DNA of 64,000 bases from Protonemura montana (taxonomy: Eukaryota > Arthropoda > Insecta > Plecoptera > Nemouridae): assembly GCA_947568835.1 (NCBI GenBank), contig OX387610.1:7527501-7591500 (forward strand), in the 5' to 3' direction. The notes under the pieces are model-generated. The model was given only the letters and a program-made list of their open reading frames with translations. It did not search any database and had not been told where the DNA came from. The position numbers were made by a program, and so were the translations under genes. Positions within the stretch are counted from its first letter, which is position 1; each line of letters starts with the position of its first letter. Positions 2,846 to 37,789 of the stretch are shown here, in pieces.

Positions 2846-2866
2846 CTGTAGATCAAGCATGAGACA

Positions 2867-3390
2867 GAAGGGGTATTAGACTGGGTATCAGAAGGGTATC
2901 AGAAGGGTATCAGAACGGGTATCAAAGGGGGTATCAAAGGGGGTATCAAAGGGGGTATCAAAGGGGGTATCAGAACGGGTATCAAAAGGGGTATCAGAAC
3001 GGGTATCAAAGGGGTATCAGAACGGGTATCAAAGGGGGTATCAAAGGGGGTATCAAAGGGGGTATCAAAGGGGGTATCAAAGGGGGTATCAAAAAGGGGT
3101 ATCAAAAAGGGGTATCAAAGGGGGTATCAAAAGGGGTATCAAAAGGGGTATCAAAAGGGGTATCAAAAGGGGTATCAGAAGGGGTATCAGAAGGGGTGTC
3201 AGAAGGGGTATCAGAACGGGTATCAGAACGGGTATCAAAAGGGGTATCAAAGGGGTATCAAAAGGGGTATCAGAACGGGTATCAAAAGGGGTATCAAAAG
3301 GGGTATCAGAAGGGGTATCAGAACGGGTATCAGAAGGGGTATCAAAAGGGGTATCAGAAGGGGTGTCAGAAGGGGTATCAAAAGGAATAT
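2867..3390. repeat. 12-bp G-rich minisatellite, about 40 units
   Basis: Units of 11-13 bp of the type GGGGTATCAAAA or CGGGTATCAGAA fill about 520 bp. Variants are interspersed (AAGGGGG, AACGGG, GGGTGTC), so the array is not freshly homogenised. It lies in the shot intron directly upstream, in transcription terms, of the acceptor at 2846. The G-runs lie on the plus strand, which is the template strand for shot. Open frames across it in several phases are artefacts of the repeat. Confidence 0.95.
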
Positions 3391-3729
3391 CTTCAGGACT
3401 GAAGATTGCTATCCCAGACGAAACATCGGCACCGGCCATGGTCGTTTTAAGGACCGAAATCATATCAATACAGAGCAAAACCGTCACCACAATCAACAAA
3501 TGAATTATTAACATTAAAAAAAGTTTCATAATAAGGTGTCATACCCAAAAGTCTACCGAATTTTCTCGTCTGTCCTTGTCCGAATTTTCATGTTCTTACA
3601 ATGCTTATCTAAGACCGCGTGAGACGTCGCGTGTTGTTTACAAAAAGGTAATTATTAACAAGCATGTCAAACAAGTCGGACGAGGTCTCCGCAGACAAGT
3701 AACAAACAGACCGCTCGAGTCTTTATCCC

Positions 3730-30124: not shown

Positions 30125-31894
30125 CTGCAACCAATCGACAAGCGCGGTTAGAAGTGAGCTTTTGTCCTGATGGCGACTTCCAAGGAAGAGGCAGGTACCA
30201 TTACGGTTTTGTGAAGGGTGGGTGGGTCATAGTGGAGCGGTGGCTGAACACAACCAAGAATGGAAATGGATGGTGAATTCAAGTTCCTACAGGAATATGC
30301 ATTATTATCAATATTTCTCAAACATATCTCCAAGTTGGAAGGGATACATTTTGGTCTTTCTGGATCGGATTACATTGGATGACGTTGGATGGCGTTGAAT
30401 AACATTGGGTTAACATTGGGTGTATTGGACTATTGATTGGATAACATTGGGGATTCTGACTAAACCTGGCAACTAAAGATACCAACATGGATAAAATTGA
30501 ACTATTTAACTAATATATTGATAAATAAGTTCAAATTTTGACAAAGGACAGGTTGTATCATTTCAAGCAGATTACCAACGAGAGATCTTCTAAAAATATC
30601 ATGATTTTAACACAGTTTCTATCAGGAGACAACCATTTAATGGTAAATACTCAAAAATATCTAATCTAAATAGACACCAACAAGGCCTAATTACATACTC
30701 GACAAATTGATAACAAAATAGAACAACAAAAAGCAACAAGACACGTATCTAAATTCAATCAACATAAGTACATGCTGTCAAGTTGAAGAAATCACTGGCG
30801 ACATTCCTGAATCAATCAAAACCATGCAGATCAACGAGGGCGTAACGAGTACTGACACCAAACTGATATGAAATCAGACTCATTACGATGTCAATTGTGT
30901 CCCATCTCGAGATAAATGACCTCAGTCTGACCTGTCACTTGGTTCTCAGCTTCGGGTCGGGAATCTGGGGCGAAAATAGTTTCCCTAGCCGTGTACAACG
31001 TCGAATTAAAACCATTTAAATTGGTTATGAGCCAAATTTCTATTGTTTGGGACCTGTTTTTTATAGAGATTACAAAAAAAAATGCGGTTACACATGAACC
31101 TTACCTAGTCATTTCCAAATTTTGGTATTGGTGTGATAAACCATTCAAGAGGTAGTTGAAAGTGTACGAAATTTTAAAAGAAAATAACGGCTTTTGCTCG
31201 GAATTACAATCTGAACGGAGAGGAGACCGCGGTTCAATTACAATTGTATGAATGTATTGTTCAGATTCATAAAAAAAAAATCGTACCCATCTTTCTTTCT
31301 GTCTAGATGACAAATTCAAGATGGATTGACCTGTCAGTTGGCTCAAAGCGTCAGGTCAAGTATCCTGATTTGACTTATAAGGCTATTGACATATGCAAAT
31401 GCAAGACAAATGCTGTCTTGACAGGCGCCACCGAACCAAGACAGTAGGTATCCAGGTGTCAAGATTATTCCTGATGACGATTTAGGTGTGGTGAACTCGG
31501 GCGAGCGAAACGGTATACGGTAAGCTTAGATTTATGGTAATAAGAGTATGGTTGTAATGGACGGTAGCCGGATAGGGAACATCGCTTGAAGCTAATGCAA
31601 CCCACTTGCCGCTTGCTTACCTATATGGTACAAAATGTATTCAGATCCGCATTTGTATACTAGATTCAAATTTGAAATTACAAAGAATGTGCTACGACAA
31701 AAAATGTACCATACATGTTAAAACGTGTTTTTTTTTCTCTCTGTAAGCCACATTCTAAAAATGTACGATTTGAAACGGTGTACCTACATATCACATGTGG
31801 CGACGAGAGAAAAAAAACCGTAGATCTAAATTTTTACATTTTTCCCTGAATTCAAAATTCCTGGTATTTTGTCTGAATTTATCGGTGTACCATA

Positions 31895-31929
31895 CACGCT
31901 AAAAAATTTGGAGTGAAAATTTCACTCCT
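31895..31929 (+). repeat. left terminal inverted repeat
   Basis: CACGCTAAAA followed by TTTGGAGTG and TTTCACTCC. It pairs with 36974-37008 with a few mismatches; the inner GAGTG/CACTC is itself a small palindrome. Confidence 0.8.
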
Positions 31930-32283
31930 TGAATGAGTGGCGTCTAATTTGACACTTGAAAGAGTGGTTTTCTGTAATATTGACTCCCAAATGTGTTGTT
32001 TTCCCACTCTTTGACAAGGAGTGCACAGAATTAGCTCTTTGGAATGAGTGCAGGGTATCGGGTACTTATTAAAGGAAGCGGTTAACTCCGGATTGAGGCT
32101 GGAGCAGTGGCTGGAGCTTACGTGAGAAATGCTGAATCTACATTTCGACAGTCATTCAACTATTATGAGAGTGTGACTCATATCTTACTACCCAGCGAAC
32201 TGTCGATTCGGAGCATTTTTAACTTTCATTCAGTAGCTACCTCGGTCTTGAAGTGAAGTGATCAGTGCGTGTCGCAACTCGCC

Positions 32284-32380
32284 ATGGAGGAAGAATGTGT
32301 TATGAATTTGGACTTGGAAGGTCTTCGACTTTTTCTAATCAAAAAAGGAATTCCGGAAGAATTGGCAAATGCTTTCAAAG
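32284..32380 (+). pseudogene. transposon-borne gene, first exon (SAM-like N-terminus)
   Basis: ATG 32284 (context CTCGCCATGG) opens MEEECVMNLDLEGLRLFL, then KKGIPEELANAFK, to donor AAAG|GTAATA, phase 1. The pattern 'V..FL...G.PEE....F' resembles the first helices of SAM-type domains that open many invertebrate and fish proteins of a multicopy family. That resemblance is from memory of the family and is not proven. About 390 bp of element precede it, which could hold its promoter. The next recognisable exon is not in a compatible phase, so a middle SAM exon is missing or decayed. Confidence 0.55.
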
Positions 32381-32463
32381 GTAATAGAACATTATGATCA
32401 AACTTTGAATTGCACACGAGGTACTTGGATTTTTATAGGTAAATTTCAACGCTTGCTTTACAG

Positions 32464-32631
32464 GTAACTCTGATGCAGTTTACTAAACCAGATGAATCGA
32501 CAAAAGGTGAAATCCAAGATCTTATGGACGATACATTTGAAATGAGGAGGAAAGAAATAAACGAGAATTCGCCTTCCATAACTGACATCATTGGGAAGTA
32601 CCCTAGGCTGATCGACTTTGATGGTAACCAG
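32464..32631 (+). pseudogene. transposon-borne gene, second recognisable exon
   Basis: It runs from acceptor GCTTTACAG to donor AACCAG|GTACGC, 56 codons, phase 0. It reads VTLMQFTKPDESTKGEIQ, then MRRKEINENSPSITDII, then KYPRLIDFDGNQ. 'RR..I....PSI.DI...YPRL.D' is the best conserved signature of SAM-headed multicopy invertebrate proteins of unknown function. Its phase does not match the upstream exon as it stands. Confidence 0.6.
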
Positions 32632-32723
32632 GTACGCTGCACGCATTATACTTTTAAACAGCAAACTCTTTGATAAAACGTTCTTATAATCCTTGCAGTC
32701 CAATCATTTCCTACTTGTTTCAG

Positions 32724-32869
32724 GTAAATCGCGAATTCAACCGAATGGAAGAGAGCAAGTCAACAAACTTTTTATCGAAGTTCCGAAAAAGCTGTACTTC
32801 TCGGATACTGAAGTATTGCGAACAATTCAAACCCAAGTCCTTCAATATGTCAAAAAAAAATAGCAAATG
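32724..32869 (+). pseudogene. transposon-borne gene, third recognisable exon
   Basis: It runs from acceptor TTGTTTCAG to donor AAATG|GTAAGC. It reads VNREFNRMEESKSTNFLSKF, then SRILKYCEQF. It joins the preceding exon in frame (GNQ-VNREFNR), which supports both exons being real. It ends in phase 2 after an A9 run, whereas the next exon expects phase 1, so one base gained or lost in the A-run may have broken the frame. Confidence 0.6.
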
Positions 32870-32981
32870 GTAAGCATAACACCACATGTTTTATGATTTC
32901 GATTATTATTAATCGATTATTATTATAATCGATTATTAATAAGAATATTAATAATTTCCACTGGTAATTTGACATTTGCAG

Positions 32982-33170
32982 ATGATCTTCGAGCAATTTT
33001 GCTTCTGGCGACTCTGCTGCCAGCATGCAACGCCAGCAAGAAAAAACTTCTGGCGACGCAGTACTTGAAAAGGGAACGGCGATCCCCAACGACTCTCTTT
33101 TGCGGTTTGTTAAGAACCCGCCATAGCTTTGAATATTTAGTTCATTACTTGTATAGAGGGCAGTGTTAAA
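32982..33170 (+). pseudogene. transposon-borne gene, fourth recognisable exon (degraded)
   Basis: After acceptor GACATTTGCAG the frame reads DDLRAILLLATLLPACNA and then seems to shift: a neighbouring frame continues QRQQEKTSGDAVLEKGTA, then IPNDSLLRFVKN, before a stop. 'DLRALLLL..LLP' followed by a polar loop is expected in this family. The shift makes this copy unlikely to encode a full protein. Confidence 0.5.
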
Positions 33171-35438
33171 CGCATCCGGGGGAGTAATACGGGACGCGGT
33201 GTGCATTTTCCCTTTCCACACATTTTCTACCGTGGCACAAGGGGAGTGTATCACGTGGGTGTCTCGCTTTGCGTCTGGAGATTTGATTGGGAACCATATG
33301 ATACTGAATGTATAAGCCGATTTGCGATAAAAATGTTCCGAGAATCGCTAATACCAGAGCCATTTAACTCAAAAATCCATCTGATGCTAATAATTGAATT
33401 TTGAAATTTTTTAAAGCACCATAACATTCGGCTCTGAGACCTGATTTCAAATCAGTTTAAATGTTTGTTCTAATGTTGAAACTACCCTCTCTAGCATCAA
33501 TTTACCGTGATCAACCAGCAAGGTTACTGGGCTGCTCGTGCTCCATCTCGCCAAACCATCGTAATCGCCTGGCGATATTATTATAAAACCTAGTAATGCG
33601 GGAATTCCAAGAAAATCAACATTGAGATAAGCACCCGCCAAGTCACAGTACCTATCATTTGATCGATTTCCGAAATTTGAAACAATCCACATTACTTTCC
33701 GAAGTTTTCTATGCGGAAATCTTTTTTGATCGACATCCTAGCCCCAGATTTAGCGATTTGACATAATTTCTCACCCAACAATTTCAATGTGACATGGTCA
33801 TGATCGTGAATTTATGCAATGAGAGGCTGCCAGCGACTTCCAAACGTGTTTTTATAAGCGATATCCACCGAGTTTATCGGGCTGCAATATGGTATTACAA
33901 TTTAGTTCAGTAGCAAGCATTTTACTTACCGAAATAAGCAGCCGACTAGATTGGACAAATCGCGTGTACGATTTATAGCTAAGAAAACTCCTTCATGACA
34001 TCGCTCTGAGGTGCATTGTGACAATATTCTTTCTGTACCAAACTGAACTTCTCGGTGCAAGAAATTGAACTAATTAACCGTGTAACTAATAATGAAAATA
34101 TACAACAAAGCAGGGAACAAGAAATCACCCTTTCTATACTTATTACTATTTTTTATTGATTTCTTATTGAACCACGCAGCACCAAAACTGTATGCACATG
34201 GCGCTAATGAAAGACCGGCAATTTGAATAGTCTAACAGGCCGAAAGTCCAAACGTTTTCATTGGATTTTACGTATCATGACGACATTAGGCAAAAAGTTA
34301 GTAATTGAACAGACCACTGCCATCCCATTATGCCGCACAAGTTGACGCTAAATTTTGCCGATGATATTTCTCAAGACTCGGGCAGCCTCTGAATCTGGAA
34401 GGATTGAATGTGTTGCTCGCTCAGTCACTGCAGTCGCTCGGCAATTATTATAATCCCGAGCTATTTCCGTCGTGCGCTAGGAATTCGAATGCGATAACGC
34501 TGCTTCGACAGCCGCGAGAGGGGAAAAACTAGCAGTTTTTGGACAGAGAATTGCATCGATTCACCTCTATGTTTACAATTAGGTAATGCTCGTGTACCGC
34601 CTAGCTCATTAAAGATAGAGCGTTCGTGATTTTTTTCAAAACAAATATTTACATAATCTAGTGTTCGGTCTTCGTTTTTATACGAAGTTTGCACTCCGAA
34701 AAAAGATATCAGCAATTTTGATAAAAAAATATAAAATGCATTTATGTGTGAACCAAATCGAATTTCGAAAAAGTCGTGGGCACAAAACATGGTTTCTGTG
34801 TCAACAACATAAGTGTTTAATTTCAAGTTTGTAGCTCAAGTCGTTTCGTGGCAATCTTGGCATTAGCTGAAAAACAGTCCCTTCTTCTTCGGTCAATTGC
34901 ATAAAGAATATTGATTGGAACCGATTGAAACGTACAGGGCGGTAGGAGAACACATGCACCTATCCAAAGAATTTTGAATCATATTTTTAGGCTAAACGAT
35001 ACGGCAGCTGTGAACAAAAGATGTGAAATTGTAGCGAAATGTTGCATTGTGAATCGACGGAGAGGATTAGATGATTATAATAAAAAATAATCGCTGTAGC
35101 ATATCCTTAAGGTACGTTTAGTTTGACTGTTTCTACTTTCGCTATAAAATGATGCTCTTCAAAATTTTGGCTTCATAAATTGTAATAGATAATGGCGTGT
35201 CTACACTGTATGATTTTGTAAAAATCCTGACAATTTTCCCAAACCCATCAGTTTATTAAATTAAAGTCATCACTAAATAGGATATTGTGAAAAAAATTAA
35301 ATAAGTCACTGTAAATAAAGCTTGAAGTATCTTCTCCATGATAAGATATATCATGCACCTCACACCTGTCCAGCAACGTCACACTGATTACAAGATTGAC
35401 TATTAAAACAAGCTCTAATTTAATGTCGATACTTTCAG

Positions 35439-35770
35439 GCAGGGGCAGACATTATCGCCTTCGTCAAGGCGAGCACGCAAGGGGGGGGGGAGAGGTCCAA
35501 CCGTTCCTCCTGTGTGTTGGCAGCCAGGAGGAGGGAGGCGATTACTTTATCGTCGCGGATAGATTTCATGTCGCAGTCGGCAAGTGCCCAGTAAGGGCTT
35601 TTGACTTGTTGTTTAAAACGTTCTATGTTTTTAATGTAGCATACCCATCGAACTTGATACGTTTCTACAATTTTGTCGAAACTCGCCTGTATGTAATGAA
35701 TGTTAAGTCAAGCAACCTTGCGGCTACAGCAGGGCTAGACGCGTCCCTGTTGAACGTTCAAATTGATTAA
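35439..35770 (+). pseudogene. transposon-borne gene, terminal exon with frame break at a G run
   Basis: After acceptor TACTTTCAG one frame reads ADIIAFVKASTQ. After a run of ten G (35480-35489) another frame continues EVQPFLLCVGSQEEGGDYF, then RAFDLLFKTFYVFNV, then YPSNLIRFYNFVET, and stops at TAA 35768-35770. 'AFDLLFK..YVFN..YP..L..F..F.E' is the usual C-terminal motif of the same family, so this is the end of the gene begun at 32284. The two frames differ at the G run, which points to a one-base length error or a true frameshift. The exons between 33170 and 35439 were not recognised. Confidence 0.6.
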
Positions 35771-35993
35771 AATTTATGACAATATGACAATATAAAATTT
35801 ATGAGAACATTAGTATTGCTACCCAGATCGCTTGGAATTTGAAATATGCTAGGAGTTATGACTAAAGTATTAAACTATTTAAGATAAGTATATCACACAA
35901 AAAGAGTTTAAATAAATTCAATAAATTTGTTTACTTAAATGAGAATTTCTCTGACCTTGAGAACATTCAAAGAATTGTTTAATTTGTGTTAAA

Positions 35994-36220
35994 ATTGTAA
36001 TTTAATCGATGGCGATCTGTTCTCTCTGATTTTTGTCTCTTCACTTCTAATTTCATTATAGAGAGTTGGTTTTATGTCTGCATTTTGAACTCTACTTCCA
36101 GTTGTACTTGCTATACTTAATGATGAATCGGTTAATTTCTCTTGAAATTGCAATTTAATCGTGGCGATCTGCATTCTCTAATTTTTGTCTCTTGACCTCT
36201 AATTTCAGTTATAGAGAGTT
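35994..36220 (+). repeat. 74-bp direct duplication inside the transposon
   Basis: Copies at 35994-36067 and 36147-36220 share TGGCGATCTG, TTTTTGTCTCTT and TATAGAGAGTT with about 85-90% identity. They lie in the 3' non-coding part of the element. Confidence 0.8.
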
Positions 36221-36535
36221 CATTGTGGAATTTAAAAAATTCAATACATCATTTCACCCATTTTTTCTGCTTAAAATTCAATTTTTATTTCTGTTTTCAA
36301 TAAAATATTTTTATGATCCGAAATTAATTCGTTGTAATATTTCCACCTTCAAAAAGTACAGCTTGATAGACCTTGCCCATGACTACAATAAAAATGTCAC
36401 GTAAGGAGTAAAATGTACGATCATGCGATGCACTTGCAATGCAGCAATGCATGCACACGAGCATCTAGCGAAAAATAATAAACAACTTCAGGTGACAGGT
36501 CTATCAAGGCGTACGAAATTATCCTTTTTACAGGA

Positions 36536-36973
36536 TTCCAATGAATTCTTTCACTCACTCGTTTTGGAGCATTGCAATCCCAGGAAATTTTCGAATATTT
36601 CGAAACTAGAGTCGAAATTTTTGACTCGTTAAAGGAGTGAAATAAAATGTCTCTTTCGAGAGAATGACTTCCACTCATTATGGAGAGGGCACATTTTGTC
36701 GTTTTAAAAGAGTGAGAATGATCCTTTCATTGAGTCAAAATATTTCACTCAATGAAAGAGTGAAATGAGATGACTCATTCGAAAGAGCGAGTTCCACTCC
36801 CAAGGGAGAGGGCACATTTTGTCGTTTTAAAAGAGTGAGAATGATCCTTTCATGGAGTCCAAATATTTCACTCAATGAAAGAGTGAAATGAGATGACTCA
36901 TTCGAAAGAGCGAGTTCCACTCCCAAAGGAGAGGGCACATTTTGTCGTATTAGAAGAGTGAGAATTGACTCTT
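36536..36973 (+). repeat. right subterminal GAGTG/CACTC repeats with 123-bp tandem duplication
   Basis: Two units, 36710-36832 and 36833-36955, differ at only a few bases. Each includes GAGTGAGAATGATCC, ATTTCACTCAATGAAAGAG and GAGAGGGCACATTTTGTCG, and a partial unit precedes them. Such repeats near the ends are where CMC-type transposases bind; the same role here is inferred. Confidence 0.85.
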
Positions 36974-37008
36974 TTGGAGTGGTTTTTGACTCCAATTTTT
37001 TTAGCGTG
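36974..37008 (-). repeat. right terminal inverted repeat
   Basis: It ends in TTTTTTTAGCGTG, the inverse of the left end; TA follows immediately. Confidence 0.8.
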
Positions 37009-37789
37009 TAGGCAATAGTGTTTAAGCTTGCACGGTTTTATGTTCTTTTAAGACTTAAGTTTGGGATGTCGTTTATAGGTAAACGCCACAAACATGACAG
37101 GTTTGACCGTACAAATCCACCCATCAATACCAAAATGAATTCAGAGCATTATTAGACATTGCCATTCAAACAGATGTTTACTAAACCTACAAAAACCAAT
37201 CATGCAAAACGTGGGTGCACATTACATTTAAAATGTGCTTCGATAAGAAAAACGAACGCCAAAACATATCAGCATGCAGCATAAAAAACGCATCGGCAAG
37301 TCAAAGAAAGAACATCATCCAGTCAAACTGGATCGCACATGAGATCATTTGCATGAACTACGGAGTGCAACAAAACTGCGGATGCTGCGCTCGAGTGCAA
37401 GCAAACTCCGAGTGCATTCCTGCGTCGGCGGCGGCCTGACCACTTACGTTGGGTGGACAACAGGGCACGTTGTTGGTCAGTGAACACACGTGCAGGCACG
37501 TGTAAGTCTGAGAAAGATGAGAGCAGAGATGACGACGAGACGTGAGGAGAGATAAGACACTCGGTGGTGAGTTTTGTGGCCAGTGGCGGCTTGTGGGGTA
37601 GTGCAGGGGAGGCTATGCCCTGATCTGGTCAATGCACGCGGGTGTGCACCTATTATTCTGATTGTGACCGTATCTTAACTTCTATAATTTTAAGGAACTG
37701 AGGGAAATTTTTAACGATTTAAGCAATTTGACTACCTCTGTTGAAGGAATCCGTATTATTGGTAATTTGGCCCTGATTTCTTTTCTTAT

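Follow-up and report, generated by a model that had tools for sequence, protein, structure and literature searches.

A SAM-headed gene as the probable second gene of a CMC-type transposon group in Protonemura montana

What is a spliced gene doing inside a transposon with no visible transposase? The question is raised by a window of 64,000 nucleotides of the Protonemura montana genome (contig OX387610.1, positions 7,527,501 to 7,591,500), which holds an exactly delimited element of 5114 bp (31895-37008, TA at either side), starting with CACGCTAAAA at 31895 and stopping with TTTTAGCGTG at 37008. Its family, here called A, has 12 complete copies in the genome, the window copy counted, and is itself without a transposase. 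What it carries is five exon-like pieces, all on the plus strand, of a gene whose N-terminal domain is a putative SAM domain. The first-pass annotation of this DNA had left two readings side by side: either a CMC-like transposon captured a host gene, or this gene family is the normal second gene of an undescribed transposon group. Because an older relative has a transposase in the gene's first intron, the SAM-headed family is best understood as part of the transposon's own equipment rather than as a host gene that it captured. We regard the window element, with a probability of about 0.8, as a young non-autonomous member of a two-gene, CMC-type group of cut-and-paste transposons.

The older relative lies at C2, on the minus strand, where a 5' terminus matching that of the window element is followed by exon 1, a zinc-finger open reading frame, a transposase, the second SAM exon, five pieces and the last exon; its gene is fuller than that of the window copy.

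28214655, minus strand: 5' terminus (pattern scan)
28206745-28206653, minus strand: exon 1 (protein scan, locus reading)
about 28204.0-28201.0 kb, minus strand: zinc-finger and transposase open reading frames (locus reading)
28200942-28200787, minus strand: second SAM exon (protein scan, locus reading)
extending to 28197998, minus strand: remaining gene pieces (protein scan, locus reading)

Across the transposase, the frame continues from exon 1 (phase 1) into the second SAM exon, and the exon borders inspected carry GT or AG. The same order of exon 1, transposase and later exons recurs on the plus strand at C16:29.34-29.35 Mb.

29337568, plus strand: exon 1 (protein scan)
29347588-29349141, plus strand: transposase (protein scan)
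29350927-29351777, plus strand: later exons (protein scan)

By genomic order, the transposase frames of both loci lie within intron 1, which is the layout of the En/Spm type. At C5 the second SAM exon stands 134 bp behind a transposase match, and at a C11 locus that is present twice the transposase is followed by the last exon.

Other elements share the surroundings of the C2 relative. Near its 5' end, a nested element (C2:28207105-28214575) encodes a Mutator-like transposase (E 9.9e-51) and a YqaJ domain (E 7.1e-13), while an open frame of 338 aa at C2:28195979-28196992 matches the DDE_Tnp_4 transposase (E 3.8e-31) and is presumably Harbinger-like.

The association of the gene with transposon parts extends over the genome. 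Protein scans gave 93 exon matches with the A gene as query and 96 with the C2 gene, the latter grouped into 41 loci by a distance rule that we set. As many as 40 of them lie no more than 20 kb from a terminus or a close-clade transposase, while at most 1.3% of the genome is equally near such parts. The exception is a fragment at C12:14738083, without a transposon part nearby. Together with the presence of both genes at C2, this distribution gives better support to the second of the two readings named above, that of a normal second gene.

A search of the genome with the 506-aa transposase frame of C2 gave 39 matches, of which 18 are 63-100% identical and 21 approximately 30-35%. The frame is 28-30% identical to the transposase of a distant family at C12 (see below), and the alignment of the two, read by eye, displays the common motifs YYDD.EIVNPLGS, D(G/T)LAA, CR.C, D.MH..EG, H...H and (Y/F)E, which agree with the CMC motif set in the accessible part of PMC12730594. 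The same source gives CA...TG termini and a target duplication of 2-5 bp as the mark of the CMC/CMCT class; here the ends are CA...TG and the duplication has 2 bp. The "CMC-like" label of the first-pass annotation is therefore in agreement with motifs, termini and flank length alike. CACTA/EnSpm elements in the strict sense differ, as the present termini are CACGC/CACTC against CACTA and the duplication 2 bp against 3 bp. Profile matches of the transposases are weak, both in Pfam (DUF1258, E 0.01, for C2; DUF4218, E 0.061, for the distant C12 protein) and for zinc fingers in the N-terminal parts.

Several observations weigh against the two-gene reading. The C2 element is decayed (a stop in the zinc-finger frame, an insertion resembling a long interspersed nuclear element, and nested elements), and we found no 3' terminus for it. 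The C11 locus is rearranged, as other SAM exons lie beyond its last exon. At C16:23.7 Mb a 3' terminus is present, but the transposase is 35 kb from the SAM piece. No matching terminus was found near the transposases of C5, C11 (at least 79 kb away) and C16:29.3 Mb; among these transposase loci, one is near only at C2 and C16:23.7 Mb. The first-pass annotation had proposed a search for full copies with both gene and transposase: both do occur in the C2 relative, yet among the loci examined we saw no complete two-gene copy between both termini. Moreover, the queries that led to the 41 gene loci were themselves taken from these elements, the joined exons of the family A protein gave no Pfam match, and a scan and alignments with the C2 gene obtained no SAM gene from the distant family. 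Finally, Transposase_21 (PF02992) was not listed for the C2 frame at E up to 1 or for the C12 protein at E up to 10, a negative limited by the HMMER filters, which discard most matches above 0.1.

The nested elements at C2, the 35 kb at C16:23.7 Mb and the lack of matching termini near C5, C11 and C16:29.3 Mb would also fit a different explanation, in which transposase and SAM gene became neighbours at C2, C5, C11 and C16 merely through nesting of different elements. We consider it quite unlikely, given that strand and order are the same at C2, C5 and C16:29.3 Mb, that exon 1 precedes and later exons follow the transposase at two loci, and that the C2 exon phases fit across it.

Turning to the window element itself, its limits and repeats are as follows.

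31893..31894, no strand: target duplication, left copy (TA); window read and 28 of 29 genome terminus pairs with equal 2-bp flanks
31895..31919, plus strand: left terminal inverted repeat, CACGCTAAAAAATTTGGAGTG...; window read, arm comparison and genome pattern scan
31911..32180, no strand: left subterminal sites of the GAGTG/GAGTC type; window read and site count against shuffles
33115..35106, no strand: nested TTAA-flanked repeat of about 2.0 kb, foreign to the element; multicopy, with 11 other full copies lacking the insert
36609..36977, no strand: right subterminal repeats, three 123-bp units; arm and repeat comparison
36984..37008, minus strand: right terminal inverted repeat; window read, arm comparison and genome pattern scan
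37009..37010, no strand: target duplication, right copy (TA); window read and the same equal genome pairs

The terminal arms, of 27 nt, are 93% complementary. Used as queries against the own genome, as the first-pass annotation had suggested for finding other copies, the first 301 bp gave 14 matches at 98-100%, and the last 449 bp gave 12 at 96-100% and 17 more at 69-84%; the termini are therefore not due to chance. A pattern scan allowing up to 3 mismatches found 79 places (21 in the reversed control), 58 of which form 29 terminus pairs. The 2-bp flanks are equal in 28 of these pairs (TA in 25; TG, AA and CA in one each), the sole unequal pair being TA/AT. Since three equal pairs are not TA, the 2 bp are a duplication and no part of the terminus: the target duplication is 2 bp, with TA preferred. 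Sites of the GAGTG/GAGTC type number 34 on both strands of a 3115-bp uninterrupted copy, whereas 300 single-base shuffles gave 8.0 on average and 17 at most. Matched termini, TA duplication and dense subterminal repeats, all described in the first-pass annotation, are thus borne out. In three copies (L020, L022 and L026), the right end matches but lacks one 123-bp unit.

The annotation had also taken 31895-37008 as one element; the boundaries are exact, but the interior is not of one piece. The window copy is longer than most, which measure about 3.1 kb, because of the inserted 2-kb repeat, which is absent from all 11 other full family A copies and has 41 genome matches including the window copy, most at 98-100%. 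Besides the window, 12 family A loci were fetched, 11 being full elements and one (L028) a 5' fragment alone. The 11 measure 2976-3367 bp, except for one of 5182 bp with an insertion of its own; copy L024 has an internal duplication of approximately 256 bp. Elsewhere in the window, positions 2852-3538 show long low-complexity reading frames with a GIKRGIRTG-type repeat.

A second family, B, comprises 14 copies, each 2171 or 2173 bp long, with termini related to those of A and pieces of the same gene; the 8 copies that were compared are at least 99.7% identical. The two families have the left 158 bp in common (73%), and the last exon in part (67% over 121 bp). Aligned with the C2 element, B runs to its position 910 and resumes at 924, skipping approximately 7.5 kb, so that the structure of family B is an internal deletion; A would have arisen in the same way. 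One further candidate, L040, was considered as an autonomous copy and rejected, being a 5' element part inside a tandem duplication. At L037, another tandem duplication, each unit contains a remnant 3' end from this transposon group, and a chemosensory receptor frame (L037:4100-5272, 7tm_7, E 6.5e-22) lies in the duplicated stretch.

Neither A nor B shows further coding sequence beyond the SAM-headed gene, which could make this gene itself a new kind of transposase. Such an explanation is highly improbable: a transposase with DDE motifs stands behind the matching 5' terminus in the C2 relative, and broken A and B copies are nearly identical and so need no product of their own.

The gene of the window copy consists of these pieces.

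32284..32380, plus strand: exon 1 remnant, first half of the putative SAM domain (MEEECVMNLDLEGLRLFLIKKGIPEELANAFK), donor phase 1; exon reading and phases
32464..32631, plus strand: exon piece e2 (VTLMQFTKPDES...PRLIDFDGNQ), phase 0, out of frame with exon 1; exon reading and phases
32724..32869, plus strand: exon piece e3 (VNREFNRMEESK...), with an A run of 9; exon reading and run lengths
32982..33114, plus strand: exon piece e4 (DLRAILLLATLLPACN...); exon reading and phases
35439..35770, plus strand: last exon (AGADI...FIVADRFHVAV...AFDLLFKTFYVFNVAYPS...), frame broken at a G run of 10; exon reading and run lengths

The spliced gene of at least five exon pieces that the first-pass annotation described is there in its pieces, but it is a broken remnant with half a SAM domain. 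Of the putative domain as it stands in the C2 relative, the first half alone is kept. The loss of the second SAM exon explains the break in phase, with phase 1 at the end of exon 1 and phase 0 at the start of the next piece. The A run of e3 and the G run of the last exon both shift the reading frame. The former is 9 letters long in the window, as in 9 of the 11 other copies (10 in L018, 8 in L026), while the latter varies from 5 to 13 across the other copies; L026 is in frame at the A run, yet frame-shifted in e4. Family B retains exon 1, an e4 remnant and a last exon with one stop.

Between the families, the proportion of synonymous differences (pS) exceeds that of nonsynonymous ones (pN) in the last exon (pS 0.87, pN 0.29, 89 codons) and in exon 1 (pS 0.745, pN 0.355, 28 codons). 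This low pN relative to pS indicates, at the level of sequence comparison, that purifying selection acted on the gene between the A and B lineages and kept it before both families lost it. In the comparison of 11 A copies, variable columns make up 21 of 885 in the exons and 100 of 2230 elsewhere (Fisher p 0.005; 0.024 without one clustered block).

The selection bears directly on the capture reading, in which an ancestral CMC element once took up a host SAM-headed gene that has been a passenger since. That the gene is broken in A and B, and not needed in cis, would suit a passenger, as would the C12:14738083 fragment. Purifying selection between the lineages and a transposase inside intron 1 at two loci argue against it, as does the failure of the A and C2 gene queries to find an intact host copy, although a distant host gene could be missed by them. 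With no host copy clear of transposon parts save that fragment, we judge capture unlikely.

As for the protein, the profile check for SAM that had been proposed stayed below the cut-off. The Pfam model SAM_1 matches the C2 pieces with 16.1 bits (gathering cut-off 23, E 0.015), in its second half only, so that the domain stays putative. The putative SAM region matches five sequences in the Protein Data Bank (E 0.099-1.5). Two of them, ANKS4B and ANKS3, carry SAM-domain names, and the remaining ones, 2dkz, Polyhomeotic and PHC3, we take to be SAM structures as well. The structure predicted for the last exon has a mean predicted local distance difference test score of 39.3, too low for a comparison with known folds, and its 95 aa found no relative in viral_contigs or phages searches.

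The distant family mentioned above was drawn from 32 of 98 places with CACTGCAAAAAC ends, which lie exactly 7382 bp apart in 14 copies (for example C4:4891559-4898940) and further apart in two more. Its longer 3' end has 18 matches, 17 of them in copies, with TA behind 13 and other pairs behind four. The copy fetched from C12 (12821900-12829300) has 14 further copies at 100% over approximately 4860 bp, and a 706-aa transposase frame is open in most copies. The family is probably autonomous, of the CMC type and recently active. On its opposite strand, some pieces were first read as SAM-like, a reading we rejected: joined, they match designed ankyrin repeats instead (best E 3.1e-6), and 273 of 5000 shuffles score at least as well against the C2 SAM pieces as they do; for the next exon the figure is 2651 of 5000. 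A stretch of that strand looks ankyrin-like. The family neither supports nor refutes the generality of the two-gene arrangement, because the 5' 2.5 kb of intact copies were left unread.

Among known systems, maize En/Spm comes closest in layout. According to the part of PMC2613891 available, it has CA...TG termini, subterminal repeats bound by TnpA, and two products (tnpA, tnpD), with the tnpD transposase frame in intron 1 of the spliced tnpA gene and deletion derivatives served in trans. The present group differs by its CACGC/CACTC termini, 2-bp duplication, SAM-headed second protein and lack of a listed Transposase_21 match; the likeness is one of layout, and we do not claim that the SAM protein is homologous to TnpA. 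SmTRC1, an animal CACTA relative, and the TRC elements likewise have 2-bp direct repeats and spliced products with and without a transposase domain, as far as PMC1636069 could be consulted, where the nature of the second protein is left open. TRC termini, on the other hand, begin with CCC, and the word SAM is absent from the main text of that source. With such an animal relative known, it is doubtful that the group as a whole is undescribed, as one reading of the first-pass annotation had it. The ESTA lineage (CMCT), in the accessible part of PMC12730594, has TA duplications, C(2)C and H(3-4)H motifs and an extra gene beside the transposase, but it is fungal and its extra gene is a TET/JBP dioxygenase; this comparison is one of features. 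No link between a SAM-domain gene and EnSpm/CACTA was found in the portions of the open-access literature searched.

Mechanistically, the ancestral element would have carried a zinc-finger plus DDE transposase on the same strand, inside the first intron of the spliced SAM-headed gene. Separate internal deletions would then have removed transposase and middle exons from A and B, keeping the ends and outer exons, and both families would have multiplied with transposase supplied in trans, as their broken copies are nearly identical. The SAM protein, in turn, may bind the subterminal GAGTG repeats, and its self-association may pair the ends or help the transposase, by analogy with TnpA in maize En/Spm.

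SAM-headed proteins are multicopy in some invertebrates, and in fishes too. We tentatively propose, as a possibility that we would not yet call probable, that these multicopy "uncharacterised" SAM-headed proteins are the TnpA counterpart of animal CMC transposons: their self-associating SAM head would pair the ends via GAGTG, and the nested layout would keep the genes together while letting deletion derivatives with both ends arise. If this is true, a protein family resembling host genes would have to be counted among transposon genes instead, and where maize has TnpA, animal CMC elements would have a second protein that can be recognised and whose interaction domain is of a known kind. The nature of the second protein in animal CACTA relatives, not settled for SmTRC1 in the part of PMC1636069 consulted, would thereby become testable.

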